In this document: positions 32,037 through 61,706 of the stretch, piece by piece
Position numbering within the stretch: position 1 is the first letter of the stretch
How the letters are laid out: every line of letters starts with the position of its first letter
Made by a program: the position numbers and the translations under genes
Source of the DNA: Labia minor
Taxonomy: Eukaryota; Arthropoda; Insecta; Dermaptera; Spongiphoridae
Direction: 5' to 3'
Assembly: GCA_963082975.1 (NCBI GenBank)
Contig: OY720344.1
Location: forward strand, 7,303,580 to 7,367,579
DNA length: 64,000 bases
Notes under the pieces: generated by a model
Databases searched by the model: none
What the model was told of the DNA's origin: nothing
The model's input: only the letters and a program-made list of their open reading frames with translations

Positions 32037-32072
32037 CTTAATGTTTTTAACATCTACAAGTTAAATTTATGT

Positions 32073-36665: not shown

Positions 36666-38716
36666 TTTGATAACAGAGATAGAATATATTTTTATATGCT
36701 ATTCATAATTAAGAATCGTATCATTAGGATTGAAACATAATTAATATAAACGACTTTGCTATCATCATCTGATGCTGGACTCATTAATAGATTATGAGTA
36801 AAAGTTTGTAACAACATTTGTATCATTCCTCCTTTCCTTTCTACTTTTTTTTTTTTTTTGGCAGAAAACTTCTCTTTCGCCATTCTTTCTACTCAATGAT
36901 AATGAATTAAATAACATTCATTTAATCATTGATATGCCGCTAGTCGAATTCATGATTCATAAATTTAAAAAAAAAAAATTAAGGTTTAAAAAAATCTATT
37001 AAAAAATTATGAAGCATAATAAAGCGACTTTTGAATGAATTATGCACGGGGGTTGAAAATGTAGTTGAAAAGACAATAGAAGACCAAAAGGTCCCAAATG
37101 TGACAAACCCCTCTTCCCCCCCCCAGTCATCACCCTTTTTTTTTCTTTTAAAGCGAATGAAACAAAAAATACATATACATATTATAATAATACAATTTTA
37201 TTATTTCAATGAATTACTATTGCATTGTTTTCCATTCGAGTGACACAGCTGATGTATAAAACTGGTTTTGCTGGATACACTAAAATTGCATTGTCTCTCT
37301 TTTTCTCTTTCTCTGTTCTCACACGTTTTCCTTTCTATTTTTTTCTTTTTCTCTCTTCTACCTAGGTTATACATACATATATTATATAAATTAATCCAAC
37401 TGCTCAATTCAAAAAAAAAAATTAACTGAAATTCTTTTGTTATTTTTTTTTTTGTTCTATTCGATTCTTTTAAAATTATTATTTGACTTTTTATTAAATT
37501 TTCTTTTATATATCTATAGAAAATAATTTTTAGATTAAAATAATATATAAATATAATATTATATTATATATTGTTCATTTTTATTTTATCCATATGATAA
37601 ATAATACTTGAATTTTAACTAAAAAAAAAATAATTTCAATAATATTTTTTTTATTTAGGAATTAGATATTTTTATACGCTTTTTATTAACTTGACTTTTC
37701 TGTCTGTCTGTAATGTTAATAATTTGTAATTGGATTTTAAGCAATTTACTCAAATTTGAAACGTATATTGAAAGTCGATGACACTGCAATAATCAAAAAG
37801 TAATATTTTGAATTTTTCAAAAATACGGATTTTCAAAATTTGTAAATTTAAATCATTGATGTTACTACAATGTTATATTTATATTTACAATTTTTTTATA
37901 TTTTATATTTTATATTTACATAAATTTTCTATACAATGTGCTTGTGTGCTCAGTGCCGCATAGTATGCCGATAAGCTACTTGCATAATCAATGTCATCAA
38001 GAAAAGGCCTAGAAACTTCGTATAAAATCTAATATCATTGAGAATAACAGATTTAAATAATAGTCAATAGTGCAATGTTTTATATTATAATAATATTAAA
38101 TTCTTTACCAACTATGTTTCTTCTTATACGCCTAGGCTTTTTTGTTGGGCATATGTAAAGGATAATATTCAATATTTAATTAATATTTTATTTTCTAATT
38201 TTTAGGGCATTTTTGATAAAAAAAGAGTGTATATTAAAGAGTATTTTTTGATTATTAAAGATTTAAATTATACTTTGGTAAATTTAATTGAATTTTAATT
38301 GGCATAATGTTTTGTTCAGATCATTCTCTTTTTTTTACAAATTTTGTTTGTATAAAAATAATTTTAACTTTTAATCCAACTCCCTGTTTTGCTTACTTCC
38401 ATTTGTTTTAATTCACCACCGAATTCTAATTATGTTTTTCTAAAAATTAATAAAACAATTTCATTTTACGAAACTAATGCTTCATCAAATAAAAATACAT
38501 TACTTTTAAGAAGTGGACCCTCAGAAACAAAAGCCTAATTGGGAAGCTACTTAAATTAAAATTAAAAAAATCAAGATTAAGGTTGAGAGGACTTGTTTTA
38601 CTGATCATAGAACATTCTTAACATGCTCTTATTACTTACATCACACGAAAGTTTATTGAACATTTTTTCACACTTTACACTTTTACACTATTTTACACTT
38701 TATATAGGTTCATTTT
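36666..38716. other. A+T-rich stretch
   Basis: Scattered open frames (36692-36883, 37031-37243) lack recognisable domains. A partial match to the SINE tail ('aaggttgagaggacttgttttactgatcatag') lies at about 38579-38610. Nothing else is supported. Confidence 0.45.
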
Positions 38717-39178
38717 TTACTATCTCGCCAGAGATAGTATTGCGATCAAGAAAATTTTCAATGTTGAGATTTCGATGTTTTTATACGTTTTGAAAGTTCC
38801 TGAATCATTTTCACTAAGGTTGAGAAAAATGTCTGTCTATGTGTATGTATGAATGAGCTAGAATAATGAAATTTGGTACACAAGCATTATTCAAAATTCA
38901 TAGTTTTTTTATCAACTTTTAAGAAATGTACCTCATTCGGAAGACGACTATTACCTCCACCTTTTCATTTTTTATAGGAATAAACTGACCGTAAAAATAA
39001 AGATTGCTATGTTTGATAGTTTTTCACATGATTAAAAATTGTATAAAACTGCTATATATAGAATTTCAGCTTGATTGAATCGCTGAAAGTACAGGAATTA
39101 TTAATTTTTAAATTTTTTTAACACGTTGACTGCCAACCACGCACCAGCACGTGGTGTGATCAACAAAGAGCCAATGTA
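38717..39178 (+). mobile_element. Family B HINE-like element, 3' end missing
   Basis: The 5' end TTACTATCTCGCCAGAGATAG and the core are present. The copy stops near 'caaagagccaatgta', just before the usual A+T-rich block and hairpin. A poly-G run follows. Confidence 0.8.
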
Positions 39179-39589: not shown

Positions 39590-39958
39590 TAAGAGATGTA
39601 ATGGTGGTCCTTTTTTTCTTCTAATGCGTCTGCTCTCGACGGTAGCCCACGAACGACTGCCCTTGTCTCTTTTCAACAACTAATAATAATCCTTTCCAAA
39701 AATAAATTTATTTTAAAGAAAGTTTTTTTTTTGTTTTTTTAAGGATTAATATTTTAAAAATATCATTACAATATATTATAATCAACAAGAATTATTATTA
39801 TTAATAATAATAATAATTATTATACTGAGTAAGTGTGAAAACTCGGATAATAATAATAATACAGATAATAATTCGCACTTTGAAAATTTTGATAATAATA
39901 ATAGTAATAATAGTAAAAAATATTATAAAGTATTTTATTTTATACATATATATATATA

Positions 39959-41640
39959 CAGTCCCTGGCCAAATTATTAGACGCACTGCAAGATTTCATG
40001 TAAAATATTAATTACCGAGTGATATTGTACTTATAAATTGAATTGTTTTTTATTTTTATATTAATCAATGAAAATAAAATAAAACAGCATTAATTTAGAA
40101 AATTATATGTTTATTAAGTATTAAAGAAAAATGAAAATACATAATGTAAATAAAAGTCAATATTTAGTCGAGCCACCTTTAGCCGCTATCAAAGCTTCAA
40201 CTCTGCGCGGCCTGCTATCAATGCAAGACTGTACTGTCTCCTGCATTTGAGGGTGATGATTCCACAAATGAATAATTTTTTCTAGGAGCTGGGTTTTGTT
40301 GGTGATCACATCTTTAGCCACTTCTCTTTTCACTAGCTCCCACACATTTCCAATTGGGTTCATATCGGGGCTATTACCCGGCCAATCCAACAGAGGGATA
40401 TTTTCTTCTGCCAAAAAAGCTTTAACAGGCCGAGCAGTGTGGCAGGGAGCTCCATCTTGCATGAAAGTGAATGGTTCCCCATTTAGAAACCATTCTTTGA
40501 GCTGCGGAATTAACCGATTTTGTAATACTTCTTTTTATTGGTGTTGCCTCATTATTCCATTTACGACGTATAGACGTCCAGCACCCTTGCCGCTGATGAC
40601 CGACCAAATCATCACTTTGGTTGGATGTTTCACCGTTGGAACGACACAGACAGGATGAAACTTTTCTCCATGACGACGACGCACATACAGAGCTTTATTC
40701 TGCAAAATTTCAAACGTGCTTTCGTCACTGAAGCAAACCTGTAAAATAAACAAAATATATAAACTTCCATGTTTCTTTGCTTTATTTAACTGAAAATGAT
40801 TATAATGTATCAATTTTTTATAAAATTACAAAATCTTATCGATCTCCAGAAGTCCACATCTTTGTCTTTCCATTGTTTGGCCCACTTCAGGCGCTTTGCT
40901 TTCATGGCAGCTGTTAACTTGGGCTTCCTGGCGGGGCGACAGGCCTTAAAATCTAATTCTTTTAATTTTCTTCGAATAGTGCGTTCAGAAGCATTTACCC
41001 TAGCATCCTGGAGTTGTGATTTTATCATCTTTGTGGTAGCAAATCTGTTTTCTAGACAAATTTTCTTCAAACATTTCTCTGACCGTGGAGTGAAAATTAG
41101 TTTTCTACTGCATCTTTTCTTTCTTTTTGAGCTTAATTCCTCCCCAGACTCAATTTTCTTTTTTATGCGGCGTACACTGGCTTCAGAAACCTTCAATCTT
41201 CGTGATATTTCCCGGTTTGTAAATGTATTTGCATTCACAAGGGCCTTCACTTCAGCTTTTTTACGTGGTGTAAGATCGACTTTTCTACCCATAATAAAAA
41301 TAGTCCAAATATTTTTTTCAAACACTCTAAACAAAATAAAGTAATAATTGAGTAGTTAAAGAAACAAAGACAGTCCATAAAGCCACAGAAACACGTACGT
41401 ACCTGCCGCGATCCCGATCACGATTGATACAGATTTGTTCTTGTTTACGTTCATGTATCACTTTGTCAACACAGTGTTGCCATTTTTTTAAAATAAATAC
41501 AAATAGATAGTCTACGACAAATCTTTTAAATAAAAATCAATAATATTGTAGTTTAAATATACAATGACTGTATAAAAACTCTTAAGAATCATAAAATTAT
41601 TAAAAAAATACAGTGCGTCTAATAATTTGGCCAGGGACTG
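39959..41640 (-). mobile_element. Tc1-like transposon, full length
   Basis: The 1682-bp element has 30-bp terminal inverted repeats starting CAGTCCCTGGCCAAATTATT and is flanked by TA on both sides (39957-39958 and 41641-41642). The inverted duplicate near 56740 is the empty site with one TA, confirming the borders. It encodes one transposase on the minus strand. Confidence 0.95.
40157..41292 (-). pseudogene. Tc1-type DD34E transposase, three lesions
   Basis: Joining 41292-40840 and 40738-40157 gives 345 codons, the normal length of a Tc1 transposase. The protein starts MGRKVDLTPRKKAEVKALV with a paired HTH region ('TFTNREISRRLKVSEASVRR'), then 'RRKLKELDFKACRPARKP'. The DDE domain has D in CFSDESTFEI and D in MQDGAPCHTARP. 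The third residue, 34 residues later, is G in PDMNPIGNVWELVKREV where active relatives have E. A TAA at 40535-40537 replaces a codon in HQ-KEVLQN. The 101-bp gap at 40739-40839 ends in a good acceptor (TTTTACAG) but starts ATAAGA, not GTAAGA. It is therefore inactive. No other frame breaks are seen. Confidence 0.9.
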
Positions 41641-41865
41641 TATTATATTAAAAAAATATTGTTCATGTAAATAAATTAAAAGATATATTATTATTACTTG
41701 TTTTAAGTTATTATGTTATGTCATTAAATTATTGATAATTTAATAATAATAATAATAATTGATCAATTACTTATAGATATGTAGATTATATATCGTTTAT
41801 TTCTCGTTTGAGAATATAATCGTTTTAAATAAATGATTTACATATGTCAATCAATTTATTATTTT

Positions 41866-42486
41866 TTACTATCTCGCCAGACATAGTATTGCGATCAAGA
41901 AAATTTTCGATGTTGAGATTTTGATGTTTTTATACGTTTTGAAGGTTTCTGTATCATTTTCACTCTGGTTGACAAAGATATCTATGTGTGTATGTATGTA
42001 GACAAGATTATGCAAAAATCATGAAATTTGGTACATGGACATTATTCAAAATTCATAGTTTTCTATCAACTTTTGAGAAATGTAGCTCAACCGGAAGAGG
42101 GTCATTACCTACAACGTTTTGATTTTTTCCTCTAAAGTGACCGTAAAAATAAAGATATATGTTTGATAATTTTTCATATGATTAAAAATTGTATAAAACT
42201 GCTATATATATTATAAAATTTCAGCTTGATTGAATCTTTGAAAAAGCGGGAATTAATTTTTAAAATTTTTAAATTTAAACTTAAAAATGAAGGTAAAGGT
42301 TTTATAAATTTAAATTTAATATATATTAATTAATTAATTTAATTGAATAACAATACTATATACTGCAAATTTACATTTTTCAATTAATTAATTCAATTCA
42401 ATTATACTTAATTTATAATTTTTAATTAATTAAATTTAATTTAAATATAATATTTTAATTGATTCAATTCAAATTTGTGAGAGATT
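41866..42486 (+). mobile_element. Family B HINE-like element, 3' end degraded
   Basis: The 5' end TTACTATCTCGCCAGACATAG and core are present. The 3' part is rearranged, with an extra block near 42280-42380, and the terminal hairpin is lost ('aaatttgtgagagat'). Confidence 0.75.
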
Positions 42487-43530
42487 TTTTTTCTTTGAAT
42501 TCATGGCAACCGACGAACCACACTTGTAACTTGTCTTTGTAATTAATCTATTTTTTTACTGAAGAGTTTACCTTACTATTCATCTTATAATTATAATCCA
42601 TCAATCCCATCCAATGGGTAAGGTAACATAATTGTAAAGAAAAATATGATCTAGTTACTTAAAAAACAAATACATTTTATAAATTATACACTAATATTTA
42701 TTAGTATGTTATATTTATTTTTATTAATTTAAAAAAAGTATTTTTTTTTCAAATATTTATTATTTTTTACAAGTGCAATTCATGTTTGTTCAATATGAAT
42801 TTAAACAGGTGAAATCTTCAGGTTAATTCAATTTGTAACTTAAAAATAAATTTAAGTAAAGACACAATATAATAATTTTAATTAATTAGTTTATTTAATT
42901 ATCCTTCAAAAAGTCTATGAGTGGGTGCAATTACTAAATTTAACAATTAATTGAAATTCAGATATTATAATTTCAAAATATTTTTTAGAAGGGATTGAAT
43001 TGACTGAATCCAAGTATAAAACTAAATATAAGTATATTTTTAATTTGATAACATAAAAAATCTCATCAATCAAATATGAAAGACTTAATTATATCCTCCA
43101 TTTTATTATTATACTTGAAGACACTATCTTGCTAATGTTGCTGAGTAAGATTCTACAAAGATAATTTATAATAATATTATACTCCTATATTATTATTATT
43201 ATTATTATTATTCTTTATCTAAGTAGATTATGATTTTAAACGGAAATAATAGTCTAGGCTTTATAATTTTTCTATTATTATGGTACATATATATATACTA
43301 TTGTTAATTCACTAATATATATTAACTAACTAATATAAGTTATGGTACGAGTTTTTTTTTTTTATAATACTTTATTTATGATACATTTATATATCTTATC
43401 TCATTATACTAGCAAAAATTGTATATATATATATATATATATATTTGTATTTTTGAAATATTAAACCACTCGAAGGATTTTTTTGAAATTCTCACCATAG
43501 ATACATTTTATAAAGAAAGATCGATCAATA
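42487..43530. other. A+T-rich stretch
   Basis: ATT repeats at about 43189-43212 and (AT)n at about 43422-43443. No exon seen. Confidence 0.5.
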
Positions 43531-43800
43531 TTGGATTGAGCCTCGGGAAAAATCATCTTTATTACTTTTTTCTTAATTTAAAATAGGAAATTTAAATGAC
43601 GTCAGAAACTACGTCAGACAGCGCTTCCTCAAATAGAAAATACGTATTATAAATATAAATAAAATAAATATTATATCCACAAGCCATACTTTTTCTGTTT
43701 TTCAGTGCATTAATATGTACGTTTAAGGGTTCTATGTTTTATGACTATTTTTTTTTTAAATTTATGTTCTAAATTATTTGAACGGCGGCTCGGTGAACCA
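43531..43800 (+). repeat. Family E repeat (related to family A), copy 1
   Basis: The stretch 'cctcgggaaaaatcatcttt' and a TGACGTCA-like pair ('aatgacgtcagaaactacgtcaga') recall the 3' half of family A. It then follows its own path to a different end, GCGGCTCGGTGAACCA. A partial copy lies at 48468-48642. It looks like a fourth lineage of the same element type. Confidence 0.6.
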
Positions 43801-44348
43801 TTAATTAATGGTTATTGAGAAGATTCATTTTATATTTTACTAAAATAGATAATATATTGTGGAGTCTTATGTATATATTTATACACATAAAATATATCAG
43901 GGATTAATTCATATATTCAGTCTTTCTCTCTCTCCCCCTCTTTCTTTGGTTCTAAAGGTTATCGTGATTCATTTCTCACCCCCCATCCCTCACTCTTGCT
44001 CCTTGCAATTACCCTGATTCAGACTGATTACTCTGCTTCCATTTGCATATCCCCAAATCCTTAACATTCTTGGACACTTTGTCCTCTCAACAAGTTCTTG
44101 GCCTGTCATTTCTTTATTCACATCCATCAATGTTTTATTTATTTTTTTTACTCTCAACAGTTCAATCTACTTTGGCTAGTTAATTCATAAATTCTTATTA
44201 TTTTTTCTTTCAAAATATGTACAGAGTTATTGTATTTTATACTTATTATTTTTAAAATGTTAAAAATACTATAATGAATATATTTTAAAGCTAAATTTTG
44301 AATGTTAAAATTTAGATAATAAAAGATACTTAATTAGTTCAAATAAAT
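43801..44348. other. A+T-rich stretch with a CT-rich patch
   Basis: The C+T-rich patch 43920-44110 has no open frame or splice signals that I trust. Confidence 0.45.
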
Positions 44349-44514
44349 TAGAGTCACCAAACGTCCCGAAAAATGTCTTCGGGACAGTCTATTGTCCCGG
44401 TTTTTAAATATATAGGACATTTCGTACTTTTTTTTCAAAAATTTTTCAATTTGGTTCTAAAAAAAAGGTTGTCTCGGTTTGGTGTTTTCGAAAAATGGTC
44501 TCTCTCTCACCCTA
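44349..44514. mobile_element. hAT-like MITE (TAGGGTGACC ends), copy 2
   Basis: It begins TAGAGTCACCAAACGTCCCG and ends near TCTCACCCTA, with inner words 'aaaatgtcttcgggaca' and 'ggtttggtgttttcg' shared with the copy at 11560-11734. Both ends carry substitutions and the target duplication is not clear. Confidence 0.75.
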
Positions 44515-44937
44515 AAATAAATTATATATTAATTTCATATTATTATTTACAAAAATTTGATTTCATGTTTTCAATTTCACTCTTGCATTGAACCACAAAA
44601 GAATAAATAAATATTAGATTTTATAAAATATAAAAATATCATAAATGTATGAGGGGTGATTGGGATTTCAATATGGGCTATCACAATGTTGTTGGCTCAA
44701 CAAGCAAGGGCCCCGGCACCCCTCGACCCAGGCAACCATTCATGACAATCATAAGTCATAAAATAAATAACCATTCATCTGCGAGGTCAATAGAAATTTA
44801 TTTAAGACTGAAAAAAAGAATCATTTCGATGCCCACCTGTTATGAAGCTATCTATAAATAATGGGTATAGTAATAAGTGAGTAATTATGAGTAAATTTCC
44901 ATTAGAATTTCTGAACAAATCTACAATAAAAAAAAAA
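44515..44937. other. A+T-rich stretch with an unassigned open frame
   Basis: The frame 44649-44861 contains a short GC-richer segment (44690-44740) with no recognisable domain. I do not call it a gene. Confidence 0.4.
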
Positions 44938-45544
44938 CTGGAGTGTCCACTCGACTATCTCGCAAATTTGAATTGGATTAAATAACTTATATTAATTTAA
45001 ATTAAATTAAATTAATTAAATTATAAATTAAAATTAATAAATAATATTTATTAAACATGTTTGACTCTTTGTTGATGGCACCACGTCACGTGTTGGCGCG
45101 TGAGATTTGCAGTGTTAAAAAAATTAATTCTGGTACTTTCAGCGATTCAATCAAGCTGAAATTCTATATATAGCAGTTTTATACAATTTTTAATCATGTG
45201 AAAAATTATCAAACATATATCTTTATTTTTACGGTCACTTTAGAAGAAAAAAATCAAAACGTTGTAGGTAATAACCCTCTTCCGGTTGAGCTACATTTCT
45301 CAAAAGTTGATAGAAAACTATGAATTTTGAATAATGCTCGTGTACCAAATTTCATCATTCTAGCTCAAACCGTTTTTGCGTAATCATGGTTAAAACGTAT
45401 AAAAATTTACATACAAACACACCGACATTTTTCTCAACCTTAGTGAAAATGATTCAGGAACCTTCAAAACGTATAAAAACATCAAAATCTCAACATCGAA
45501 AATTTTCGTGATCGCAATATTATATCTGGCGAGATAGTAAAAAT
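44938..45544 (-). mobile_element. Family B HINE-like element, both ends present
   Basis: It starts CTGGAGTGTCCACTCG (two bases shorter than other copies) and ends GGCGAGATAGTAAAAA. It is nearly complete and typical, with the body words 'agcgattcaatcaagctgaa' and 'accaaatttcatcattctag'. Confidence 0.85.
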
Positions 45545-46228
45545 TTAATTATATAGGCCAATTATAATTAATTTCATAAAAAATTCAAATTTTTTTATTT
45601 TAAAAATAGGTCCTATTCAAAACGTTGTAAAATATGATAAATTATGATAATAAATTCTCCTTTACACTAAATTCTCAGCATTCAGAAAGTAAAAATTACA
45701 TATATGCCATATGTCACTTGCTTACAACAAATCAATTATTTAATAAATTAGTTTACTACTCTTTAATTAATTAGACTCAAGGAATGGAGAGAATACTCGA
45801 GATTAAAATTAATTAAATAAATTTAAACGTAATATAAATATAATAAATATAAAAGAATGAATCTAGTAGATTTCTTGAAGTAGGAGCATGTCTATTCATT
45901 AACTATAACTAACTAACAAATAATAAAAACAAAAATTAGGAATACCCCCCTCCCCCCAGGGAGGGAGGATAATCATGGTATAAATTCTATTGTCATTTAA
46001 TCAATAATAAATATCATACAAATCTTCAATATATTTATATTTATATATAATTTATTTATTTTTATAATACAATTGTTTATAAGAATCATTTGTCTCCAAA
46101 AGTTAGATAAAATTTTTCTTAAAAACAAAAAATAAATTTATATATAGATATTATTTATATAATTTAATGAATAAAATACTAAAGTACTAAAAAATAATTT
46201 ATTTTTTCAATGAGATATTAAATGAAAT
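45545..46228. other. A+T-rich stretch
   Basis: Nothing supported. Confidence 0.5.
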
Positions 46229-46456
46229 ATGGATGAAAAAACAGTTTTAGCTGGCATAAATAAATGGACAGATGAATGTCGATTGTGTTGTGTTTTGTTA
46301 GAAATGAAGTTTTTTTCTAAGGCAGGAAAGTTGGCTGCCGAAGTGGGTCTCCTCTTTATTGACAGCTACCTTAACGAAAAGTTCCCCAACAAAAAAGACG
46401 CCAACAACTTTCCACTCACTGCCCACCTTGGAGATATAATGCCAGCTCGGAAATAA
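46229..46456 (+). CDS. Small open frame of 75 codons, unrecognised
   Basis: The frame starts MDEKTVLAGINKWTDECRL, continues SKAGKLAAEVGLLFIDSYL and ends GDIMPARK. Its base composition is much less A+T-rich than the flanks from about 46310 on, and amino-acid use is balanced. An overlapping minus-strand frame (46298-46510) is also open, so the strand is uncertain. No splice sites clearly bound it. It may be a fragment of a host or transposon gene; I recognise no family. Confidence 0.25.
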   Translation: MDEKTVLAGINKWTDECRLCCVLLEMKFFSKAGKLAAEVGLLFIDSYLNEKFPNKKDANNFPLTAHLGDIMPARK

Positions 46457-47020
46457 ACCTTCAATAGTTCTCTGGCGCCCATGAAACATAAAAAACTTTT
46501 TCGTATCCAAGAAAAACGACCACTTGTTTTGAGTTTTAAAGAATAAACATTCGCCTACCTTATAAACAATTTTTATTGACTTTTCCCAACTTTTATATCA
46601 TTTCGAAATTTTTTTTCTTTTCTTTTTTTTTATATAGAATTCTTTAAGGTGTCACGTGAAATTATTCATCCATAGACATTTTATGTAAAAATAGTCTTAA
46701 AAATAATTTCCCCGTTTTAATAGTTAATAATAATTACTATTTATTATGTTTTTGTAGTAAATGAATAATTTCTTTGAAATGATTTACAATCTGTCAAACC
46801 AAATACAAAATTCATATTAAAATGATATAAGATAAAAATAAGTCACGCACAGAATGTTTGATGAATAAGTGAACATTACATGATTTGAAAAGAAATTTTA
46901 AATGTTCATTAAACTTTCATTGAGTGACTTTTATTTATATATGAAAATGTCTTTATTCTAAAAAATTGATAAAATAACTTAAATATCATTGTTTTTAAAA
47001 TGAATTAAATTAGAATATAG
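46457..47020. other. A+T-rich stretch
   Basis: Nothing supported beyond the tail of the preceding open frame. Confidence 0.45.
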
Positions 47021-47990
47021 GGTGACCCAGCCAGTAGTTGAACAAATAAAGCCAGTTTACCACGGATCCTGTTGTAAGTTTTATACTATTAGCCGTAAAA
47101 CTAAGCTAATGGATTTTTAACAAAGCTTTATTATTGTAGTTATTAAAAAAAATATTAAACAGTGCTTAACTGAAAAATAAAAAGCAAAAAAAAAATTCAC
47201 AACATTTTTTATGATTTTATCCCAGTGGTTGAACAGACATGTCCAGTTTTTGAACGCTCGATATTCCAGTAATTGAACACCCGTTATTTCATAGTTTTTT
47301 TTTATTGTAAGTTTAGGTACACATCCAAAACGACTTAACAAATATCTAGGCCTATAGCTTGAGCACTCATAACACAATACAAGGCTGATTCACATTCCAA
47401 ACATTGCTCAATGTTTAAATTATAATAATAATAATAACAATAATACATATATTTATTTATTTATTTATTTCAAACAAACACCAATCAGCAATATACACAT
47501 AAGATACAAAATTAAAAATATTTTTAAAATTTTTTAAACTTTTGATACGAAATTGCTTTGGGAGTCGGGTCCCGTTTCTGCATACAGATTCCTGGTTTTA
47601 CTTTACTTTACTTTAGGCGAGTCCGTTTGTCTTGAAAGTGTTGCTTGGATTGCACTAACATTCAATGCTGAAGGTGAGGCATCAAAATTATGATTAATTT
47701 CGGGCTCTTTTTCAATACACTCAGACAAAAGGCCATTTGTCTGAGTTTCATTAAGACATTTGCTCCGAAGCCTTTTCCAAAACTGAAACAGTTCACGCGC
47801 CTCAATATTACCCTCCCACTCTTCCCCTGCACTTTTCTAAATTCTTCAGGCCTACCCTTGGGGAAGAGGGATTCAAGGTATAAGAGGGATTGAACATTAA
47901 CAGTCTGGTGATCTTCAATGACGGGCAACGTTCACCACTGTTCAATTACTGGAATTTGTGCATTGTAACAGTGCCATTAGTTGAACAGTC
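47021..47990 (-). pseudogene. Degenerate coding remnant with repeated TTGAACA words
   Basis: On the minus strand an open frame gives SLLYLESLFPKGRPEEFRKV and then QGKSGRVILRR. A shift of frame continues with ELFQFWKRLRSKCLNETQTN and later LNVSAIQATLSRQTDSP, so a decayed coding sequence with at least one frameshift is likely. Around it the words 'ccagt(a/g)(a/g)ttgaaca' recur at about 47033, 47223 and 47266, with the inverse of CCAGTAATTGAACA at 47939-47952. The family is not recognised; a transposon remnant is my best guess. Confidence 0.4.
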
Positions 47991-48185
47991 AGTTTAGAGC
48001 TCTAAAAAATAAAAAATATCTATACCTTAATATCATGCTTCAAAATGTAGTCCTTTAGCTTTAATTTAAGACCAATTCGGTAAAAATATCTCTAAAAATG
48101 ACTAGGATGCACGTGGATTACTTTTACTTACCGTATTTTCAGTAGACTAGTCGTGAATGCAAAAACAAGCATTTCATTTGAGAAA
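47991..48185. other. A+T-rich stretch
   Basis: Nothing supported. Confidence 0.4.
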
Positions 48186-48467
48186 ATAAGTTGACCTGTG
48201 GCCAGGTCCGAACCGACCGACGGTTTGAAAAATTAATTTCCAGCTACAGAAACAATTTCAAATAATTTTAATATATCTATTAATGTAATAAAACACAGAT
48301 AGGCATATTACATAAATATTTTTAATTTTATTTTGTTTATAATATATTTGTAAGACCAGGCTGTGACGTCATGAATGACTGGATGACGTCATATAATTTT
48401 AAATCAAGAAAAAACTAATAAATATGATTTTTCTCGAGGATAAAACCAATACAAAGTGCATGATTCG
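48186..48467 (-). mobile_element. Family A HINE-like element, 3' part only
   Basis: It starts with ATAAGTTGACCTGTGGCCAG (the 3' hairpin) and ACCGACCGACGG, and includes both TGACGTCA palindromes. It stops near 'aaagtgcatgattcg', before the GTCY core. A family E fragment follows immediately. Confidence 0.8.
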
Positions 48468-48642
48468 TCCCTAAATATAAATAAAGTTAAATTAAGAAAT
48501 ATATTTTATTATGTTATATCCACAGGCCATATTTTCTGTCTTTCAATGGATTAATATGTATGTTTAAGGGGTGTATGTTTTATGATTATTTTTTTTTAAT
48601 TTATGTTATTTTAAATTATTTGAAAAGCGGCCCGGTGAACCA
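48468..48642 (+). repeat. Family E repeat, copy 2 (partial)
   Basis: It matches 43640-43800 from 'ttatatccaca' to GCGGCCCGGTGAACCA. A further lone end (GGCTACTCGGTGAACCA) lies at about 48697-48713. Confidence 0.6.
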
Positions 48643-48719
48643 AGTATATTACCATCCAAACCCGATAATAAGAAATATTTATTTTTAATAACCAAGCGGC
48701 TACTCGGTGAACCAGGTAC

Positions 48720-49776
48720 TTATGACCTTTCTTCATTGATATTTAAGATTATAATTATAGAAAATGAGCAGGATTTTTTAAATTTATTTCAATTAATTTT
48801 CAGTAAAAAAAATTTACTTATATAAAAATATTCAAATAAAACTAATATTTTTTAAATAAAAAAAGTTAATCGATTAAATTAGCTGAATGAATAAAACTAA
48901 ATTCAACAAATTATTAAAATAATAATAATCTAATGAAAGTAAATAAAAGCGTCGTTAACAATCATAATTTAATGAAAATTATTTTATTGAAATTTCAAAT
49001 AAAATGCACATAAAATTTTATTTAAAAATTAAAAATTTATATGCAAATCATATAGAAAATCATGAAAATAGGAATGCCTATTTATTCAGTCTTTGGCGAC
49101 GATTATTTCTATAATTAATCTTTCGATCAATTTTTTAGACAAATCATTCTGCCAATTTTGTTTTATTGAAAATTCAAAGTGATTCAAAAAAATTCTATGC
49201 CTGATTGGTAAACGAATGAAAATTAAATGCAATTCTGTCGCTTTTGAAAAGTTATAGATGATTCAAATTTTGAATTTGACACCCATCGCGAAATTATAAT
49301 TCTCAATCTCTCCTCGAAATGAATTTTTACTTTAATCATTTGAAAGTAATTATTGGCCTGTGGACAAATGACAAAATAGAAAAAGAAAATTGTCATCAAA
49401 TCCAATTAAGAAAACCTATTATTTTCAATGATATATTTTCATGTTATATATCAGTATTAAAAGAAATATATAAAAAATAGGACATTATAAAAAATTATTT
49501 AATAATTTAAGTTGAAATAATCTAGAGAAAGTCTTTATTTATTTAATTGGATTAATATATTAAAGCATCTAATATATAAATCTATTCTCCCTTTCTTTGT
49601 TTTTTTTTATCTTTTGTTTTGGTTTTATTAAATAAAATAAATATTTTTTTAAAAAAATCTCTTTTCATAATCATTTTATTTTTAAATAAATAAATATTTA
49701 TATTAAAATATCACAACTTTTAAATTACTAATTTATAAAAAAAATTTGGATATTAATTAAAGAAAGTTTTAGATAA
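48720..49776. other. A+T-rich stretch
   Basis: Nothing supported. Confidence 0.5.
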
Positions 49777-49778
49777 TA

Positions 49779-50037
49779 TTAGGTTGGCAACTAAGTCATT
49801 GCCGATTTCATTCATAGATGACTTCAGTTGAATTTTTAGGTTTGCCGACGTAGTCCAAATGTAAAACATATTTTGGTATTTGATAGTTGGTAATTCAGCT
49901 GTCAATCAGTAAAAAAAGTTTTTTGATCGGTTCCGTAGTTTTCGTTTGACGTTCGTTGAAAGAAATGTTTTCTCTTTTAAAATAAAACTGGAGGAAAAAA
50001 ATACAAGCTCAAAGCTTTTCTTTTAAAGGGTTGTTAA
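49779..50037 (+). mobile_element. Mariner (mellifera-type) 5'-end fragment
   Basis: After a TA dinucleotide the sequence reads TTAGGTTGGCAACTAAGTCA, the terminal repeat of mellifera-subfamily mariners, followed by the usual untranslated leader ('atttttaggtttgccgacgt'). The transposase and the other end are missing. It stops at about 50037. Confidence 0.8.
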
Positions 50038-50132
50038 TAGGCGTCGCGGTAACCAAGGCAACCAGGCAGAACAACCCTTTTGTAAGGGTCAATAAATTCT
50101 ACAGTGTTGTTGGATGTTGTGCTCTCTTCCAT
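50034..50132 (-). CDS. Very short open frame (32 codons), unrecognised
   Basis: Minus-strand frame from an ATG at 50132: MEESTTSNNTVEFIDPYKRV then VLPGCLGYRDAY and a stop. It is GC-richer than its flanks and a T-rich tract precedes the ATG, so it may be the last exon of something or a small peptide gene. No homologue is recognised. It abuts the mariner fragment. Confidence 0.2.
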   Translation of the reverse strand: MEESTTSNNTVEFIDPYKRVVLPGCLGYRDAY

Positions 50133-50345
50133 CTTATCATTCAAAAAGAAAAACAAAAAATATTTTACTTTTTTTTTATATTTAGATAATTGATTATATG
50201 GAAGTTTGATTTGGAACAATTCTCGATTCATTAATATAATTATTGTTCAATAAAATTAAAATTATCATCTGAAAAATCAAAGAGTTTGATAATATCGGGT
50301 CTAATTTATTCATGATAGATTTTGATTGATTTATTATTATTCGTT
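50133..50345. other. A+T-rich stretch
   Basis: Nothing supported. Confidence 0.4.
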
Positions 50346-50887
50346 TTTTACTATCTCGCCAGTCGATGTTGAGATTTTGATGTTTTTATACGTTTTGAAG
50401 GTTACTGGATCATTTTCACTAAGGTTGAGAAAAATATCTGTCTGTGTGTGTATGTGTATGTATGTAGACAAGATTACTCAAAAACTGTTTGAGCTAGATT
50501 AATGAAATTTGGTGGACGGGCATTATTCAAATTTCGTAGTTTTACCTACCACGTTTTGATTTTTTTTCCTCTAAAGTGATCGTAAAAATAAAGATATATG
50601 TTTGATAATTTTTCACATGATTAAAAATTGTATAAAACTGCTATATATATTATAAAATTTCAGCTTGATTGAATCGCTGAAAGTAGCAGAATTAATTTTT
50701 TAACACTGCAAATCTCACGCGCCAACCTGGTGACCTGGTGCCATCAACAAAGAGCCAAAATTGCGCTGGTTTAATAAATATTATTTATTAATTTTAATTT
50801 ATAAATAATTAAATTTAATTTAAATATAATATATTATGTTATTTAAACCAATTCAAATTGCGAGATAGTCGAATGGAGACACTCCAG
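50346..50887 (+). mobile_element. Family B HINE-like element, short 5' palindrome
   Basis: The 5' end is TTACTATCTCGCCAGTCGATG, so the second half of the usual palindrome is deleted. The core has TGTG/TATG repeats (50440-50465). The 3' end GCGAGATAGTCGAATGGAG with hairpin TGGAGACACTCCA is intact. Confidence 0.85.
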
Positions 50888-51030
50888 CTAATTATTTTAT
50901 GGATTAGTGTATGCTAATGATAATACCATTTTTAAACAATTTTCAGCAAAAAAAAAAAAAAAACTATTTATAATTTTTTTTTCGTAATACATACTTGAAA
51001 GATTCAACTTTTAAATGAAACAATTATTTG
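50888..51030. other. A+T-rich stretch
   Basis: Nothing supported. Confidence 0.4.
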
Positions 51031-51370
51031 TACACCTATCCCCCGATTTACACGGTACTTGTTTTACACGTTTTCGCTTTTACACGGTTTTCCAAATAAT
51101 TTTTTTTTACTAAATGCTACTGTGTTTGAACACGTGCGCTGTGTACACATCTCACGGGGAATCCCGAGCTTATGTGCTGACTTGGTGCACATACACACTG
51201 TGTCTGTATTTCTTTGCATAAAATTAAAGTTTTATCTACGGAAAATTGTATTTTAGTGAAAGTTTCACAATTTCAGAAACATTTAATTTTCCATATTCGT
51301 AAATTACAAGTGAGTGCATAATTTAGATTATTATAAATTAACATTAATTAAAAAAAAATATAGACTTATA

Positions 51371-51726
51371 ATGTCGAAAGAAGTTAAAAGAAAAGTTCTT
51401 TCTTTAGAAATTAAAATCGAAATTTTGGATCGCTAACGAAAGGGAAGATAGAGTAGTAGATGTTGCAAAATCATATACCATGAACGATGCTACAATAAGA
51501 ACTATTAGAACAAATGAAAACACAATTAGAAAGAGTGTTGCAGCTGGCAATGCCACGAGTATGGGCACAATTGTTAATAACCGATTTTATTACCACCTCT
51601 CAGAATGTAAATATTTCTGCTTCAAACATCTAATCGGCACAAATAACTTCGAGTGATGAAAGTGAATTCCAACCTTCGATTCCGAAAAAAAGAATGAGAG
51701 TAATTTCTGATAGTGATGAAGGATAA
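51371..51726 (+). pseudogene. pogo/Tigger transposase remnant (CENP-B-type HTH)
   Basis: The frame begins MSKEVKRKVLSLEIKIEILD, the CENP-B/Tigger-type N-terminal helix-turn-helix ('KRKxLSLExKxxIL'). Two frame shifts and a stop follow. The next readable parts are VVDVAKSYTMNDATIRTIRT and NENTIRKSVAAG, matching 'SLAKEYGVGxATIxxIxKNExxI'. The end, ITSSDESEFQPSIPKK and ISDSDEG, looks like an acidic C-terminal tail, so the central DDE domain is deleted. Confidence 0.75.
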
Positions 51727-51784
51727 TAAAACACCTTTGGTTTTATTTTTTGTTCTTCTGTTTAATGTATTTTAATTAAATAAA

Positions 51785-52437
51785 GATAAGTTGACCTGTG
51801 GCCAGGTCCGAACCGACCGACGGTTTGAAATAAATTAATTTCCAGCTACAGAAACAATTTCAAATAATTTTCATATATCTATTAATGTAATAAAAAACAG
51901 ATATGGATACATAAATAATAAATATAAACATTTTTAATTTTATTTTATTTATAATATATATGCAAGACCAGGCTGTGACGTCATGAATGGCTGGATGACG
52001 TCATATAATTTTAAATCAAGAAAAAACTAATAAATATGATTTTTCTCGAGGATAAAACCAATACAAAGTGCATGATTCGTGGTGATATATAAAAAAATCT
52101 CCTTTGGTGTGAAAATAACCCTTTCCTTCCTATCGTCGATCGCTAATACTACCACTTCCGGTTTTCGGAATTGCAAAAAAAGTTGATCAATTCATCCCAC
52201 TGATGCATTAAGTAAATATACCAAATTTCATCAAAATCGGTTGAGCCGTTCAGGCTGTACACATCTAAACGGACGGACGGACAGACGGACAGACGGACGG
52301 ACAGACATCATGCTAAAAATACTTTTTTCTGTTTAGAAAATGCATGATTCGTGGAGATATGTAAAAATCTCCACATGTGAAATTTGGTGTGAAAACAATA
52401 CCTCCCTTACTATCGTCGGTCGGTAAAAAGAAAAGCT
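51785..52437 (-). mobile_element. Family A HINE-like element, both ends present
   Basis: It starts ATAAGTTGACCTGTGGCCAG and ends CTATCGTCGGTCGGTAAAAA. The GTCY core is at 52269-52309 and TGACGTCA palindromes lie near 51976 and 51996. It is inserted in the pogo/Tigger element. Confidence 0.88.
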
Positions 52438-52954
52438 ATATATAAAAAAACGTAAATTTGAGGGTATAAATAAATGACTTTAATGGTTTTCATAGTAGTC
52501 ACCTTTAAGATCTATATATAAACTCTTAAATATAATAAATAAATTATTTGAATATATTAAATATAATGTTATTTATATATTAAATTTGAAAATAAGCCTT
52601 CTTTGATAATTGAATTGTCATTAATTATTGACCATCTTTAAATTCATTTAAAACTATTAATATAATGAAGAATATTGTTTTAGTCAAATCAAATGTGTTG
52701 AAGGTGTATAAATCCTTTGCAACATAAAATTTCAATCCTTGTTTTACTGGGATTTGATTATCAAGGAAAATATAGTATTTGTAGTAATATTATTTTCTCT
52801 TTATTTGTCAAGAGTACTGCTTAATAAAATGATTGATTTAATTTTATTTTTAATATTATTCTTATTTTAATAAAATTAAAGTGTTAAGTGTTTTCAAGGG
52901 TTCACTGACTGTTAAAAGGCTTTTATTTAATTTTTTTTTTTTTTTATAACATTT
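51785..52954 (+). repeat. Large inverted repeat, left arm
   Basis: This arm contains a family A element (51785-52437, reversed) plus about 500 bp of other sequence. It is repeated in reverse at 53672-54838. Rare variants such as 'aacatttttaattttatttt' after an 'aataataaata' stretch are shared, so the arms come from one duplication. Confidence 0.9.
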
Positions 52955-53053
52955 TTTAGAAAATGCATGATTCGTGGAGATATGTAAAAATCTCCACATG
53001 TGAAATTTGGTGTGAAAACAATACCTCCCTTACTATCGTCGGTCGGTAAAAAC
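52955..53053 (-). mobile_element. Family A 5'-end fragment
   Basis: A 98-bp repeat of the terminal part of the neighbouring family A copy, from 'agaaaatgcatgattcgtgg' to GTCGGTCGGTAAAAA. Together the two define a direct repeat around the ~500-bp segment 52438-52954. Confidence 0.75.
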
Positions 53054-53275
53054 AGTGTTTCCGTAATATATTACATATTTTAACCTGTCAATGCATTTTA
53101 TTTTTATTTCTATGTACACCTAAAAATATTGAAAAAAATCAAAACTGTTAAATAGCAAAATTATGCATTTTCTGCAAGCTTTTCGATTTACACGGTTTTG
53201 ACTTGAAAATTTTTAATTTTCGATTTACACGTTTTTCTCAGGAACGTATCTACCGTGAAAATCGGGGGATAGGTG

Positions 53276-53457
53276 TAATTATGTAGAATAAAAGTAAATG
53301 ATAATTATTATTATTATAATTTATAAAAAATATGACTCTTCGTATATCATTGAATAGATTATTCAAATTTTATAAAATAGAAAACAAAACAAAAATAAAT
53401 AAATGATTCAAAAATAAAGAAAGATTTTCAATGACTTTTATCATCCCCTATGAAGCG

Positions 53458-53497
<40 letters not shown>

Positions 53498-53671
53498 GCA
53501 AGTGTTATGTGGCGCCTCCAGGGGAAAGGGAGAGGGAGTCAATTGAAGCATCTGGCATCTGGCTCCATTCACAAGATTATTATTCAGACACAACCATTCG
53601 CCCCGTGAGTGGATTTTGTCAGTTGTCGACCCCACAAAATACGATTAAAAAAAAAAAAATTGATAAAAAAA
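53276..53671. other. Spacer between the inverted arms
   Basis: An (AT)n tract at 53465-53495 is followed by a GC-richer patch (53510-53640), with short open frames on both strands and no recognisable protein. Confidence 0.45.
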
Positions 53672-54838
53672 ATGTTATAAAAAAAAAAAAAAATTAAATA
53701 AAAGCCTTTTAACAGTCAGTGAACCCTTGAAAACACTTAACACTTTAATTTTATTAAAATAAGAATAATATTAAAAATAAAATTAAATCAATCATTTTAT
53801 TAAGCAGTACTCTTGACAAATAAAGAGAAAATAATATTACTACAAATACTATATTTTCCTTGATAATCAAATCCCAGTAAAACAAGGATTGAAATTTTAT
53901 GTTGCAAAGGATTTATACACCTTCAACACATTTGATTTGACTAAAACAATATTCTTCATTATATTAATAGTTTTAAATGAATTTAAAGATGGTCAATAAT
54001 TAATGACAATTCAATTATCAAAGAAGGCTTATTTTCAAATTTAATATATAAATAACATTATATTTAATATATTCAAATAATTTATTTATTATATTTAAGA
54101 GTTTATATATAGATCTTAAAGGTGACTACTATGAAAACCATTAAAGTCATTTATTTATACCCTCAAATTTACGTTTTTTTATATATAGCTTTTCTTTTTA
54201 CCGACCGACGATAGTAAGGGAGGTATTGTTTTCACACCAAATTTCACATGTGGAGATTTTTACATATCTCCACGAATCATGCATTTTCTAAACAGAAAAA
54301 AGTATTTTTAGCATGATGTCTGTCCGTCCGTCCGTCCGTCCGTCCGTATAGATGTGTACAGCCTGAACGGCTCAACCGATTTTGATGAAATTTGGTATAT
54401 TTACTTAATGCATCAGTGGGATGAATTGATCAACTTTTGGTGCAATTCCGGAAACCGGAAGTGGTAGTATTAGCGATCGACGATAGGAAGGAAAGGGTTA
54501 TTTTCACACCAAAGGAGATTTTTTTATATATCACCACGAATCATGCACTTTGTATTGGTTTTATCCTCGAGAAAAATCATATTTATTAGTTTTTTCTTGA
54601 TTTAAAATTATATGACGTCATCCAGCCATTCATGACGTCACAGCCTGGTCTTGCATATATATTATAAATAAAATAAAATTAAAAATGTTTATATTTATTA
54701 TTTATGTATCCATATCTGTTTTTTATTACATTAATAGATATATTAAAATTATTTGAAATTGTTTCTGTAGCTGGAAATTAATTTATTTCAAACAGTCGGT
54801 CGGTTCGGACCTGGCCACAGGTCAACTTATTTTTTCTA
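53672..54838 (-). repeat. Large inverted repeat, right arm
   Basis: Reverse of 51785-52954. The boundary at the left is in an A-rich tract; the right boundary is the end of the family A element. The arms differ mainly in the GTCY repeat number and a few single bases. Confidence 0.9.
54199..54838 (+). mobile_element. Family A HINE-like element, both ends present
   Basis: It runs from TTTTTACCGACCGACGATAG to the GACCTGGCCACAGGTC hairpin and AACTTATT. The GTCY core is long (54318-54348). TGACGTCA palindromes are at 54613-54620 and 54633-54640. A family B element follows directly. Confidence 0.9.
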
Positions 54839-55509
54839 CTATTATATCTCGCTAGAGATAGTATTGAGATCACGAAAATTTTCGATGTCGAAATTTTAAC
54901 TTTTTTACACGTTTTGAAGGCTCCTAAGTCATTTTTTCACTAAGGTTGATAAAAATGTCTCTGTGTGTGTATGTAGACAAGATTACTCAAAAACGGTTTG
55001 AGCTAGATTAATGAAATTTGGTGGAGGGGCATTATTCAAAATTCCTAGTTTTCTATCAACTTTTGAGAAATGTAGCTAATTCGGAAGAGGACCATTTCCT
55101 ACCACGTTTTGATTTTTTTTCCTCTAAAGTGATCGTAAAAATAAAGATATATGTTTGATAGTTTTTCACATGATTAAAAATTGTATAAAACTGCTATATA
55201 TAGAATTTCAGCTTGAAGTACAGGAATTAATTTTTAAAAATTTTTAACACGTTGACTGCCAATCACGCACCAGCACGTGGTGTCATTTCAGCTTGATTGA
55301 ATTGTTGAAAGTACCGGAATTAATTTTTTAACAAATCACGTACCTGCACGAAACGTGGTACAATCAACAAAGAGCCAAACACGCGCTGGTTTAATAAATA
55401 TTATTTATTAGTTTTAATTTATAATTTAATTAATTAAATTTAATTTAAATTAATATATGTTATTTAATCCAATTCAAATTTGCGAGATAGTCGAGTGGAG
55501 ACACTCCAG
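54837..55509 (+). mobile_element. Family B HINE-like element with internal duplication
   Basis: The 5' end is altered (CTACTATTATATCTCGCTAG). The segment around 'ttcagcttga...gaattaattttt...acgt' occurs twice (about 55205-55280 and 55287-55350). The 3' end GCGAGATAGTCGAGTGGAG with hairpin TGGAGACACTCCA is intact. Confidence 0.8.
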
Positions 55510-55744
55510 ATTTGTTATAATTGATATTATCAATTTCAATTAATCCTGTATTTAAAATGAACTTTTATGTTTGACTTAAATATAAAGTTAAAGGATTTAT
55601 TTACGTTGAAAAAACCAAAACAATGTTGATATTATTTGATTCCTTTCTTATTTCAATAAAATGTTATCAGTGAAAATTATGTTATAAACGTTAAATCCTA
55701 TAATCAGAATGAATAAAATTTTAACTAATTTTCAAATATAGAAA

Positions 55745-55784
55745 AAATTCAAATTTTCGAGATAGCCGAGTGGAAACAGTCCAG
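55745..55784 (+). mobile_element. Family B solitary 3' end
   Basis: Only 'ttcaaattttcgagatagcc' and GAGTGGAAACAGTCCAG are present, the last 40 bp of the family. The rest of a family B element is not seen immediately upstream. Confidence 0.6.
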
Positions 55785-56504
55785 ATTTTTTTTAAACTTT
55801 TGCATCATCCTTCAAATAGATATAGGCAATTTGTGAAGACATTGGTAGTCATAAAACCAGCATAGTTACTAATTGTAAAGTGAAACGCAAGATTGTAAAA
55901 ACTGATTTACTAATTAAACTGGAAAAAATGTGAAAATTCTTTCGATTTTCAACGTATTTCCAAAAAAACAGTTTTTATCTGAGCAATGTGTAACCAATAT
56001 TCTATCCACACTCTTAAATAGAATACATTCGTTTTCTGTCTAATGAAAATTTGAATTTTATGGAAATTTGTTAAGACATAATTTATCTAGTAGTTGTATG
56101 ATTTTTAGATAAGAACTATTAAAAATTGCTTAACCATATGAAAACAGATTCTTATCAAGACGATCAATTTGAAAGAAATAATTATAATCTAGCTGAAACA
56201 TGATCACAAACAAAAGTTATAAAAAAAGACTTAATCGTTTTTTTTTTAAATATTGTTTAAGCTTTGTATAATTTATTAAAAAAAAGGTGCCTAATGTATG
56301 GAATTAAAATTCATATAGATAAGAGAGAGAGAGAGAGAGAGAAAAAGAGAGTTTTACATTTTATCATAAATTTCAATCGAAATTATAAGTTCAAAAGCAT
56401 TTCATTACAATAATGTTTCTTTAAAGAAAAAAATACAACAATTTATTAGGTTGGAGAGAGAAAAATTGAAAAAAAATAATAGGGAAGTAAACACGAAAAA
56501 AAAA
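55785..56504. other. A+T-rich stretch, (GA)n microsatellite
   Basis: (GA)n at about 56323-56341. A 'ttaggttgg' word at 56446 recalls a mariner end but goes no further. Nothing else supported. Confidence 0.45.
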
Positions 56505-56608
56505 AATAATAAATTGATTGACATATGTAAATCATTTATTTAAAACGATTATATTCTCAAACGAGAAATAAACGATATATAATCTACATATCTATAAGTA
56601 ATTGATCA

Positions 56609-56646
<38 letters not shown>

Positions 56647-57126
56647 ATTATCAATAATTTAATGACATAACATAATAACTTAAAACAAGTAATAATAATA
56701 TATCTTTTAATTTATTTACATGAACAATATTTTTTTTAATATAATATATATATGTATAAAATAAAATACTTTATAATATTTTTTACTATTATTACTATTA
56801 TTATTATAAAAATTTTCAAAGTGCGAATTATTATCTGTATTATTATTATTATCCGAGTTTTCACACTTACTCAGTATAATAATTATTATTATTATTAATA
56901 ATAATAATTCTTGTTGATTATAATATATTGTAATGATATTTTTAAAATATCATTAATCCTAAAAAAAAAAAAAAAAAATTTATTTATTTAAAAATAAATT
57001 TATTTTTGGAAAGGATTATTATTGTAAAACGTTTCCCCAGAAGAGACTAGTTGTTGAAAAGAGACAAGGGCACTCGTTCGTGGGCTACCGTCGAGAGCAG
57101 ACGGAAGAAAAAAAGGACCACCATTA
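56505..57126 (-). repeat. Inverted duplication, copy 2 (no Tc1)
   Basis: Reverse of 39590-41868 without the Tc1 element. At about 56740 the sequence runs through a single TA where copy 1 holds 1682 bp. The right limit coincides with a MITE at 57127. Confidence 0.9.
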
Positions 57127-57660
57127 GGCCCGATTCACACACAAGTGGCGTATGGCACTGGCGTGGTTCTGGCGTGGAACAGGTTTGTTTATGTAATTGC
57201 ATTAGCTTATGACTCAATACCCACAGATATGGCGTGTTGGAGGCGTGGAAAATGGCACGAAGACCACTCCACTCCGACGCGACCGGTGGCTCGTAGGGAC
57301 TTTGCACGCCACTTCTAGACCATTTCATTATTCATTTCAACTTTTTAATCAAATTTTATATTTTGCCAGCATTTAATTATAAAAACGTGTTTTTTGTGCT
57401 ACTTTTTTTATGCTACTTTAAATGTTATTAATTTATTTAAAAAAAAATCAAAGTAAACAAAATAAAAATAAAATATAAAATTAGCATAACACTAAACTAC
57501 TATAAAAATAATATTAAAAAATATATTATATATTAAAATCTTACGTGAAAATCCAATTATGAGATCAAATTTTCTTAATTAAAATAATTTACTCACATAA
57601 TCTTAAGAACCACGCCAGAACCACGCCAGTGCCATACGCCACTTGTGTGTGAATCGGGCC
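57127..57660. mobile_element. PIF/Harbinger-like MITE
   Basis: The 534-bp element has perfect 51-bp terminal inverted repeats (57127-57177 and 57610-57660) beginning GGCCCGATTCACACACAAGT. TTA flanks both ends (57124-57126 and 57661-57663). Copy 1 of the duplication has the unfilled site with one TTA ('ccaccattacatc' on its minus strand). The GGCCC start and TWA-type duplication fit PIF/Harbinger. There is no transposase. Confidence 0.88.
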
Positions 57661-57930: not shown

Positions 57931-58129
57931 GAATGTTTATAATATTTATATTTTTTTTCCAATATACAAAATATTTTAATTGATCATATTGGCCTTTTTA
58001 ACTTATTTAACACACTGAAAACATTCACATTACGGGTTTATTACCTCTTTTTTAATTTTTTGAGTATATGAATAAATAATTTTAATTGTATTCTCATAAT
58101 TGGATTTTCACGTAAGTTTTTAATATTGG
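57931..58129. other. A+T-rich stretch
   Basis: Nothing supported. Confidence 0.4.
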
Positions 58130-59518: not shown

Positions 59519-60096
59519 TTTTTTCTCGCTAAAGATTCGTCGAGATTTTGATGTTTTTATACGTTTTAAAGGTTCCTGAATTATTTTCACTAAGGTTGAG
59601 AAAAATTTCTGTCTGTCTGTGTGTGTATGTGTGTATGTATGTAGACAAGATTACGCAAAAACGGTTTGAGCTAGAATCATGAAATTTGGTACATGGGTAT
59701 TATTCAAAGTTCGTAGTTTTCTATCAACTTTTGAGAAATGTAGCTCAACCGGAAGAGGGTCATTACTTACAATGTTTTGATTTTTTTTCCTCTAAAGTGA
59801 CCGTAAAAATAAAGATATAGGTTTGATAGTTTTTCCCATGATTAAAAATTGTATAAAACTGCTATATATAGAATTTCAGCTTGATTGAATAGCTGAAAGT
59901 ACCAGAATTAATTTTTTAACACTGCAAATCAACACGTGACGTGGTGCCATCAACAAAGATCCAAACATGCGCTGATTTAATAAATATTATTTATTATTTT
60001 AATTAATAATTTATAATTAATTAAATTTAATTTAAATATAAAATATGTTATTTAATCCAATTCAAATTGCGAGATAGTCGAGTGGAGACACTCCAG
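59519..60096 (+). mobile_element. Family B HINE-like element, 5' end altered
   Basis: The 5' end is 'ttttttctcgctaaagattc', with the palindrome lost. The core (TGTG/TATG repeats at 59610-59642) and the 3' end with GCGAGATAGTCGAGTGGAG and hairpin TGGAGACACTCCA are intact. Confidence 0.8.
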
Positions 60097-60399
60097 CTTT
60101 TTGGAATTAGGCTCAGACGATGTGAAATAATTATTATTATTATTAAATGTTTTTATTTCTATTTTGGAATGTATGGAATTTCTATATTTTCTAGCACCTT
60201 CACCATTCTTTATACTAATACTACTACTACTACTACTAATAATAATAATACAAGTAATAATATCGTAATATCAGTGAAGGAATAATAGGTACGTATTATC
60301 TCTCTTTTGGTTCTTTTTATAGATTGAGTATAGTTTTTAAATTTTTATTTTTTTTATATTAGGTATCTTTTATATTCTTATCGTTGATTTCGATTGGTT
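60097..60399. other. A+T-rich stretch
   Basis: A trinucleotide ACT/AAT run at about 60219-60250. Nothing else. Confidence 0.45.
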
Positions 60400-60760: not shown

Positions 60761-61170
60761 GTATATAACCTAAAAATTATATATCCTCCCTGTACTTACT
60801 TTCTCACTTAATTTCCCCCCTCCCCCTCTCTCTCTCTCTTTCTTTCTTTCTTTCTCATTATTCAATTTATAAATTTTAAATTAATTAAAATCTTTATTTG
60901 TAAAAACTAATCAATTATCATTAAATAAATTTATATTATATTTTATTATATTTCATGAAAAAAAATAATATTCTATTAGAAAGTTATTATAAAAGATCTG
61001 ATTTTTTAAAATTATTTTAAATTTATTAAATTTTTTATTTATATATCTACCGCATATAAGATATCTTATTTTATGGTTTAAAAAAAAATTTCAAAGAAAT
61101 TAAACAGTTCTGTTATAATTTATAACATTTAATTAATAATAATAATTTTACGTATACATATTATTTTATT
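60761..61170. other. A+T-rich stretch, (TC)n microsatellite
   Basis: CT-type repeats at about 60825-60856. Nothing else. Confidence 0.45.
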
Positions 61171-61706
61171 GGTAATTATTTAGTCTAATCGATGTATCAT
61201 GGATTCGGATAAAACTTTACCAGTGATTCCATTTTGGATTCAAAACAAACTTTCATTAAGCAGTATGTGGCGGTTGCTTATAGTTTACGAGATAAAAATT
61301 ATTAAAATTTGCATATAAATCCATTGATATTCTATTTAGCTACCATTTATTATTATTTGACCACCAGAGGGCTCCACTAGTTTTCTAGTTTTTATTTTCA
61401 TTTCCGTTTGGATATAAGAAGATTAAAAAATTAATTAATTAAATAGTTTTTCTATATCCAAACCGAGCTTATAAAAACCGAAAATTAGTGAATGAGTGAA
61501 TAATTAGTGAATTAGTCAATAAAACATTATTAAATGGCTGTTCATTCATAACTAGTTTATCAGTCAAACTTTAATAATTTTTATCTCGTAAACTAGAATC
61601 GACCGCCACATACTTATTAAGGAAAGTTTGTTTTGAATCAGAAAAGAAATCTACTGGTAAAGTTTTATCAAAATCCATCATACATCTTTTAGACTAAATA
61701 ATTACC
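61171..61706. mobile_element. Long-TIR MITE family D, clearest copy
   Basis: It begins GGTAATTATTTAGTCTAA and ends TTAGACTAAATAATTACC. The arms pair over about 145 bp and include 'gataaaactttaccagt' and 'gtatgtggcggt'. The centre matches the copies at 18946 and 34163. Superfamily unknown. Confidence 0.85.

Follow-up and report, generated by a model that had tools for sequence, protein, structure and literature searches.

A 0.6-kb block of sequence is present twice, in opposite orientation and about 15 kb apart, in the 64,000-nucleotide stretch of Labia minor DNA that we analysed (the window; contig OY720344.1, positions 7,303,580 to 7,367,579), and one copy retains the uninterrupted target site of a Tc1-type transposon that splits the other. 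A sequence-only reading of this DNA had proposed that each copy is an empty site for the transposon associated with its partner. This holds for the Tc1-type element in copy 1. At the miniature element (MITE) that adjoins copy 2, homology between the copies is found on the inner side only, and no flank shared by the two copies could be detected at either end of the block. With roughly even confidence, we favour a recent 0.6-kb copy-insertion, joined at a T-run on one side and at the edge of the MITE on the other, followed by insertion of the Tc1-type element into copy 1. The locus looks like an ordinary, if tidy, genome rearrangement of a well-known kind, and the main result carries a caution: a matching 3-bp flank beside one-sided homology is no empty site.

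Table 1. Positions in the window of the two block copies and of the mobile elements that interrupt or adjoin them.
Feature	Positions	Strand	Basis or remark
Copy 1, part left of Tc1-type element	39599..39958	+	39599-39955 aligned to 56744-57126 reversed
Tc1-type transposon, 1682 bp	39959..41640	- (degenerate transposase on minus strand)	30-bp perfect terminal inverted repeats, empty site, Pfam
C-terminal transposase piece	40157..40534	-	Pfam DDE_3, E 6e-10
N-terminal transposase frame, Tc3-type helix-turn-helix	40810..41355	-	Pfam HTH_Tnp_Tc3_2, E 6e-16
Copy 1, part right of Tc1-type element	41641..41867	+	Aligned to 56501-56746 reversed
Dispersed repeat X member adjoining copy 1 right edge	41868..42484, right end approximate	+	Family 3' hairpin absent
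Copy 2; two-sided empty site for Tc1-type element	56501..57126	-	BLAST and alignment
534-bp MITE	57127..57660	.	51-bp perfect terminal inverted repeats, TTA both sides; inner edge is the end of homology

The inverted repeat itself is real. BLAST self-comparison of the window recovers the two halves of the block with E-values of 9e-147 and 1e-101, and pairwise alignment of copy 1, with the Tc1-type element removed, to the reverse of copy 2 yields 569 matches, 5 mismatches and 8 gaps. Its edges, earlier given as 39590-41868 and 56505-57126, are corrected here to 39599-41867 against 57126-56501 (Table 1), which leaves 14.6 kb between the copies; the first 9 bases formerly assigned to copy 1 (39590-39598) have no match in copy 2. 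Two of the five mismatches lie outside an A/T-rich low-complexity run, and substitution between the copies is 0.35-0.87% (2 to 5 of 574). Among the gaps are 25 bases found only in copy 2, 5 bases found only in copy 1 and several simple-repeat changes, and the longest identical tracts measure 142, 127, 91 and 64 bases. A 25-codon frame from ATG opens copy 2 (57124-57047, minus strand), and its counterpart in copy 1 (39601-39624) is brought to a stop after 7 codons by a 5-base insertion; the frame is probably there by chance.

In the alignment, the sequence that the Tc1-type element interrupts runs unbroken through the corresponding site in copy 2 and is homologous to either side of it, which makes copy 2 a genuine, two-sided empty site for this element. 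Paralogous pre-insertion sites, also called related empty sites, are generally used to define transposon ends. Copy 2 resembles these in showing a Tc1-type pre-insertion sequence with homology on either side, and differs from them in that its target falls within a (TA)n run of variable length and the MITE half of the comparison is one-sided. Both the 1682-bp length of the element and its empty site stand as originally described. However, that copy 2 passes through a single TA is not directly readable from the sequence. To the left of the element the flank ends in ATATATATATATA and to the right it begins with TATTATATT, with TA on both sides within the (TA)n run, and the run in copy 2 is, by hand count, 4 bases shorter than duplication of one TA predicts. 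Because the run differs in length between the copies, the exact target duplication is not readable, and the flanks are best described as consistent with a TA duplication. The two-sided homology supports the earlier inference that the duplication preceded the Tc1 insertion, and a clean pre-insertion site is now available for one Tc1-type element.

The Tc1-type element carries two transposase pieces that score above the Pfam cut-offs. These are in different frames, an in-frame stop precedes the DDE_3 piece, and the segment directly before that piece (40535-40741) gave no match in the Pfam scan. When the DDE_3 piece is aligned to Sleeping Beauty (5cr4_A), a Gly occupies the position of the Glu of NPIEN, the usual catalytic Glu, which suggests that this copy of the element is probably inactive.

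The element adjoining copy 2, a candidate member of the PIF/Harbinger superfamily, is a 534-bp MITE with TTA on both sides, as had been read from the sequence, and its inverted arms are perfect over 52 bases when the adjoining base is counted. PIF-type transposons prefer TTA or TAA targets. If the family uses only such targets, the TTA on both sides of the MITE is weak evidence. One source describes PIF repeats of about 15 bp and target duplications that are typically 3 bp (PMC9710019).

Homology between the two copies begins at the TAA on the inner side of the MITE. Beyond its outer side, local alignment to the left flank of copy 1, judged against random pairs from the window, revealed no convincing homology: scores for the nearest 30, 40, 60, 100, 200 and 400 bases were equalled or exceeded by 67%, 7%, 11%, 29%, 69% and 29% of random pairs, respectively. 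Since the block is about 99% identical between copies, a true flank beyond the MITE would be expected to be about 99% identical as well. A 12-base resemblance, TCTGTAAGARAT, occurs near both left flanks and is equalled in 7% of comparisons between random 40-base stretches; it was set aside because a true flank at the divergence of the block should match almost perfectly. Judged by these comparisons, copy 1 is a one-sided match and no demonstrated empty site for the MITE, contrary to what had been claimed. With homology on one side only, the proposal that the duplication is older than the MITE insertion is likewise unsupported, and arrival of the MITE may have preceded, accompanied or followed the duplication. 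Nor are both target duplications directly readable, as had been held, given the variable TA run at one element and the missing two-sided empty site at the other. About 400 bases past the MITE, a 65-base stretch (58062-58126) is 79% identical to part of the MITE interior in opposite orientation, and may represent an older remnant of that family.

At the right edge of the block a T-run is present in both copies, and in copy 1 it leads into a member of the dispersed repeat X. Ten pieces of X are present in the 64 kb (20998-21574, 22191-22763, 33420-34029, 38710-39174, 41863-42484, 44928-45543, 50363-50900, 54838-55513, 59539-60102 and 63602-64000). One of the ten aligned pieces is cut by the window end and another lacks the 5' end, and by eye six of the eight that have a 5' end start directly after five or more T. 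The family 3' end is absent from two of the ten, including the member beside copy 1. By eye, the family carries CTATCTCG near its 5' end and CGAGATAG near its 3' end, with a hairpin at each. Asymmetric short inverted repeats, terminal hairpins and insertion beside T are given as features of Helentron-derived elements in PMC5148889, and X has the look of a non-autonomous element of this origin.

Over its first 380 bases, the X member beside copy 1 differs from the consensus of the other pieces at 15 of 357 sites (4.2%), and 12 of these differences are private. This makes it ordinary among the ten pieces, whose 5' parts are 2.6-9.4% diverged. Its divergence over the full length is 15.1%, and we take the excess to come from the AT-rich 3' part. 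Compared with at most 0.87% substitution between the block copies, 12 private substitutions give a Poisson tail of 1e-4, a figure that draws on the 10 pieces of this window and presupposes an X source copy that was not already divergent. On that premise, more private substitutions are present than could have gathered since the duplication, and thus this X member is probably older than the duplication of the block.

No homology between the copies was found to the right of the block either. The flanks directly adjacent to it score no higher than 46-78% of random pairs, the flank of copy 2 and the stretch that follows X no higher than 9-57%, and a 1.5-kb comparison on this side was equalled by 22 of 145 random pairs. 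Searches near and far for homology resuming past the MITE or past X returned, among the matches listed, only low-complexity sequence, members of the X family and other dispersed repeats.

The block is therefore bounded by a transposon end in copy 2 (the MITE) and by a repeat end in copy 1 (X). Copy 2 holds 90 TTA or TAA positions, and insertion of a MITE at the terminal one has a chance of about 1 in 90, or about 1%. Runs of six or more A or six or more T number 451 in the window, and their frequency makes an edge at a T-run less surprising. These features suggest that the block is a bounded unit or, alternatively, a duplication for which repeats fixed the breakpoints.

Under the reading we favour, a second copy of a 0.6-kb segment would have been inserted in inverted orientation about 15 kb from the first, and a repair-associated route such as templated insertion or template switching is the most likely means. 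The copied tract would end at the T-run, which in copy 1 leads into the older X, and at the TAA that borders the MITE in copy 2. Later, the Tc1-type element, probably mobilised in trans, would have inserted into the (TA)n run of copy 1. The duplication, the empty site of the Tc1-type element and the lack of a detectable shared flank are observed directly; the donor copy, the copying mechanism, the relative age of X and the time at which the MITE arrived are inferred.

A possible alternative, although one we doubt, is that the block belongs to an undescribed dispersed repeat with defined ends, which inserted twice independently, with the MITE and X merely situated at its ends. Such a repeat would account for the same two edges in both copies with no flank in common, and X elements occupy positions of the same kind as the T-run edge. 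However, only two copies are present in the 64 kb, other places among the matches listed score no more than 55 bits and are short and AT-rich, and the block has by eye no terminal inverted repeats. Furthermore, the window has no Rfam match at the gathering threshold, and the landing of the MITE at the last of so many potential targets would be a coincidence at the 1% level.

We consider it improbable that the inverted pair is the scar of a 14.6-kb inversion that arose when one end was broken in a staggered fashion. The earlier remark that the pair can promote inversion is a generic one, and such a repeat may just as well be what a past staggered-break inversion left behind (PMC5080602). Among the three inversion mechanisms that PMC5080602 names, staggered breaks are the one reported to produce segmental duplications where the breaks occur. 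The position and orientation of the two copies are those of such scars, and one original and one new flank for each copy would fit the absence of shared flanks. In the inverted duplications at Drosophila inversion breakpoints described there (PMC5080602), inverted copies likewise flank a segment. In contrast to those cases, the locus studied here is known from one arrangement only.

That the duplication came before both insertions, with each copy a clean empty site for the transposon of the other, now appears very improbable. This sequence of events holds for the Tc1-type element, and at the MITE it can point to the TTA on both sides and to two further bases (TG) directly past the TAA that agree by eye between the copy 1 flank and the outer MITE flank. 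Two bases are too few to count, homology does not resume past the MITE, and the two-sided match is absent.

Very little weight is also given to a transposase-cut edge. Here, aberrant excision of a PIF-type element in a replicated region would have produced an end starting with the target-duplication TAA, and joining of this end elsewhere would have generated an inverted duplication with one transposon-defined edge. Composite insertions formed by alternative transposition in maize (PMC4270019) are similar in that the edge of a segmental duplication coincides with a transposon end. Unlike the maize case (PMC4270019), the duplication here measures 0.6 kb with a MITE at one end only, there is no second element or target duplication that would prove the reaction, and the element belongs to a different superfamily. 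If transposase made the edges, the locus would provide a natural example, on a small scale, of an insect segmental duplication driven by a transposon.

An assembly artefact, whether serial placement of two haplotypes or an amplification chimera, is scarcely credible: the substitution level is within the range that alleles can show, but haplotypes in series are disfavoured by the opposite orientation of the copies and the lack of a shared flank on either side, the copies differ by indels of 5, 25 and 1682 bp, and a chimera would be expected to yield near-identical copies.

The remainder of the window (26.35% G+C) contains many dispersed repeats in self-comparison. Four of the ten reading-frame pieces scanned are recognised by Pfam: the two transposase pieces, an anamorsin N-terminus and a 2Fe-2S thioredoxin-like protein, which we take to be the complex I subunit NDUFV2. 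Viral contigs contained 0 matches to each of the exact patterns taken from the block, from the Tc1 and MITE ends and from the ends of X and Y, and the N-terminal transposase piece picked out 25 stretches by pattern in these contigs, of which tblastn confirmed 0.

A stronger inverted repeat lies inside the interval between the block copies (51782-52957 and 53667-54834, with a 709-bp spacer), aligning with 1160 matches, 8 mismatches and one 8-base gap. All 8 mismatches fall in the outer 510 of 1176 columns and the inner part is identical, a distribution with a chance of about 0.001 if mismatches were evenly spread. As judged by eye, the outer edges of this inverted repeat coincide with the 3' end of another dispersed repeat, Y (23364-24027, 29169-29701, 31254-32039, 48185-48485, 51779-52459 and 54165-54835), and the start of its spacer (52955-53052) matches 98 bases of Y. 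Like the block, this 1.2-kb inverted repeat stops at the terminus of a repeat, and it could stem from the same rearrangement burst as the putative transposase-cut edge. Several copies of Y end in TTTTTACCGACCGACGATAG and GTCGGTCGGTTCGGACCTGGCCACAGGTCAACTTATT; sub-terminal inverted repeats and a hairpin at the 3' end can be made out by eye, and the family is Helentron-derived in look. Finally, a 0.55-kb palindrome-like repeat at 61160-61717 is 74% identical to its own reverse complement and has relatives at 34188-34694 and 18939-19365.
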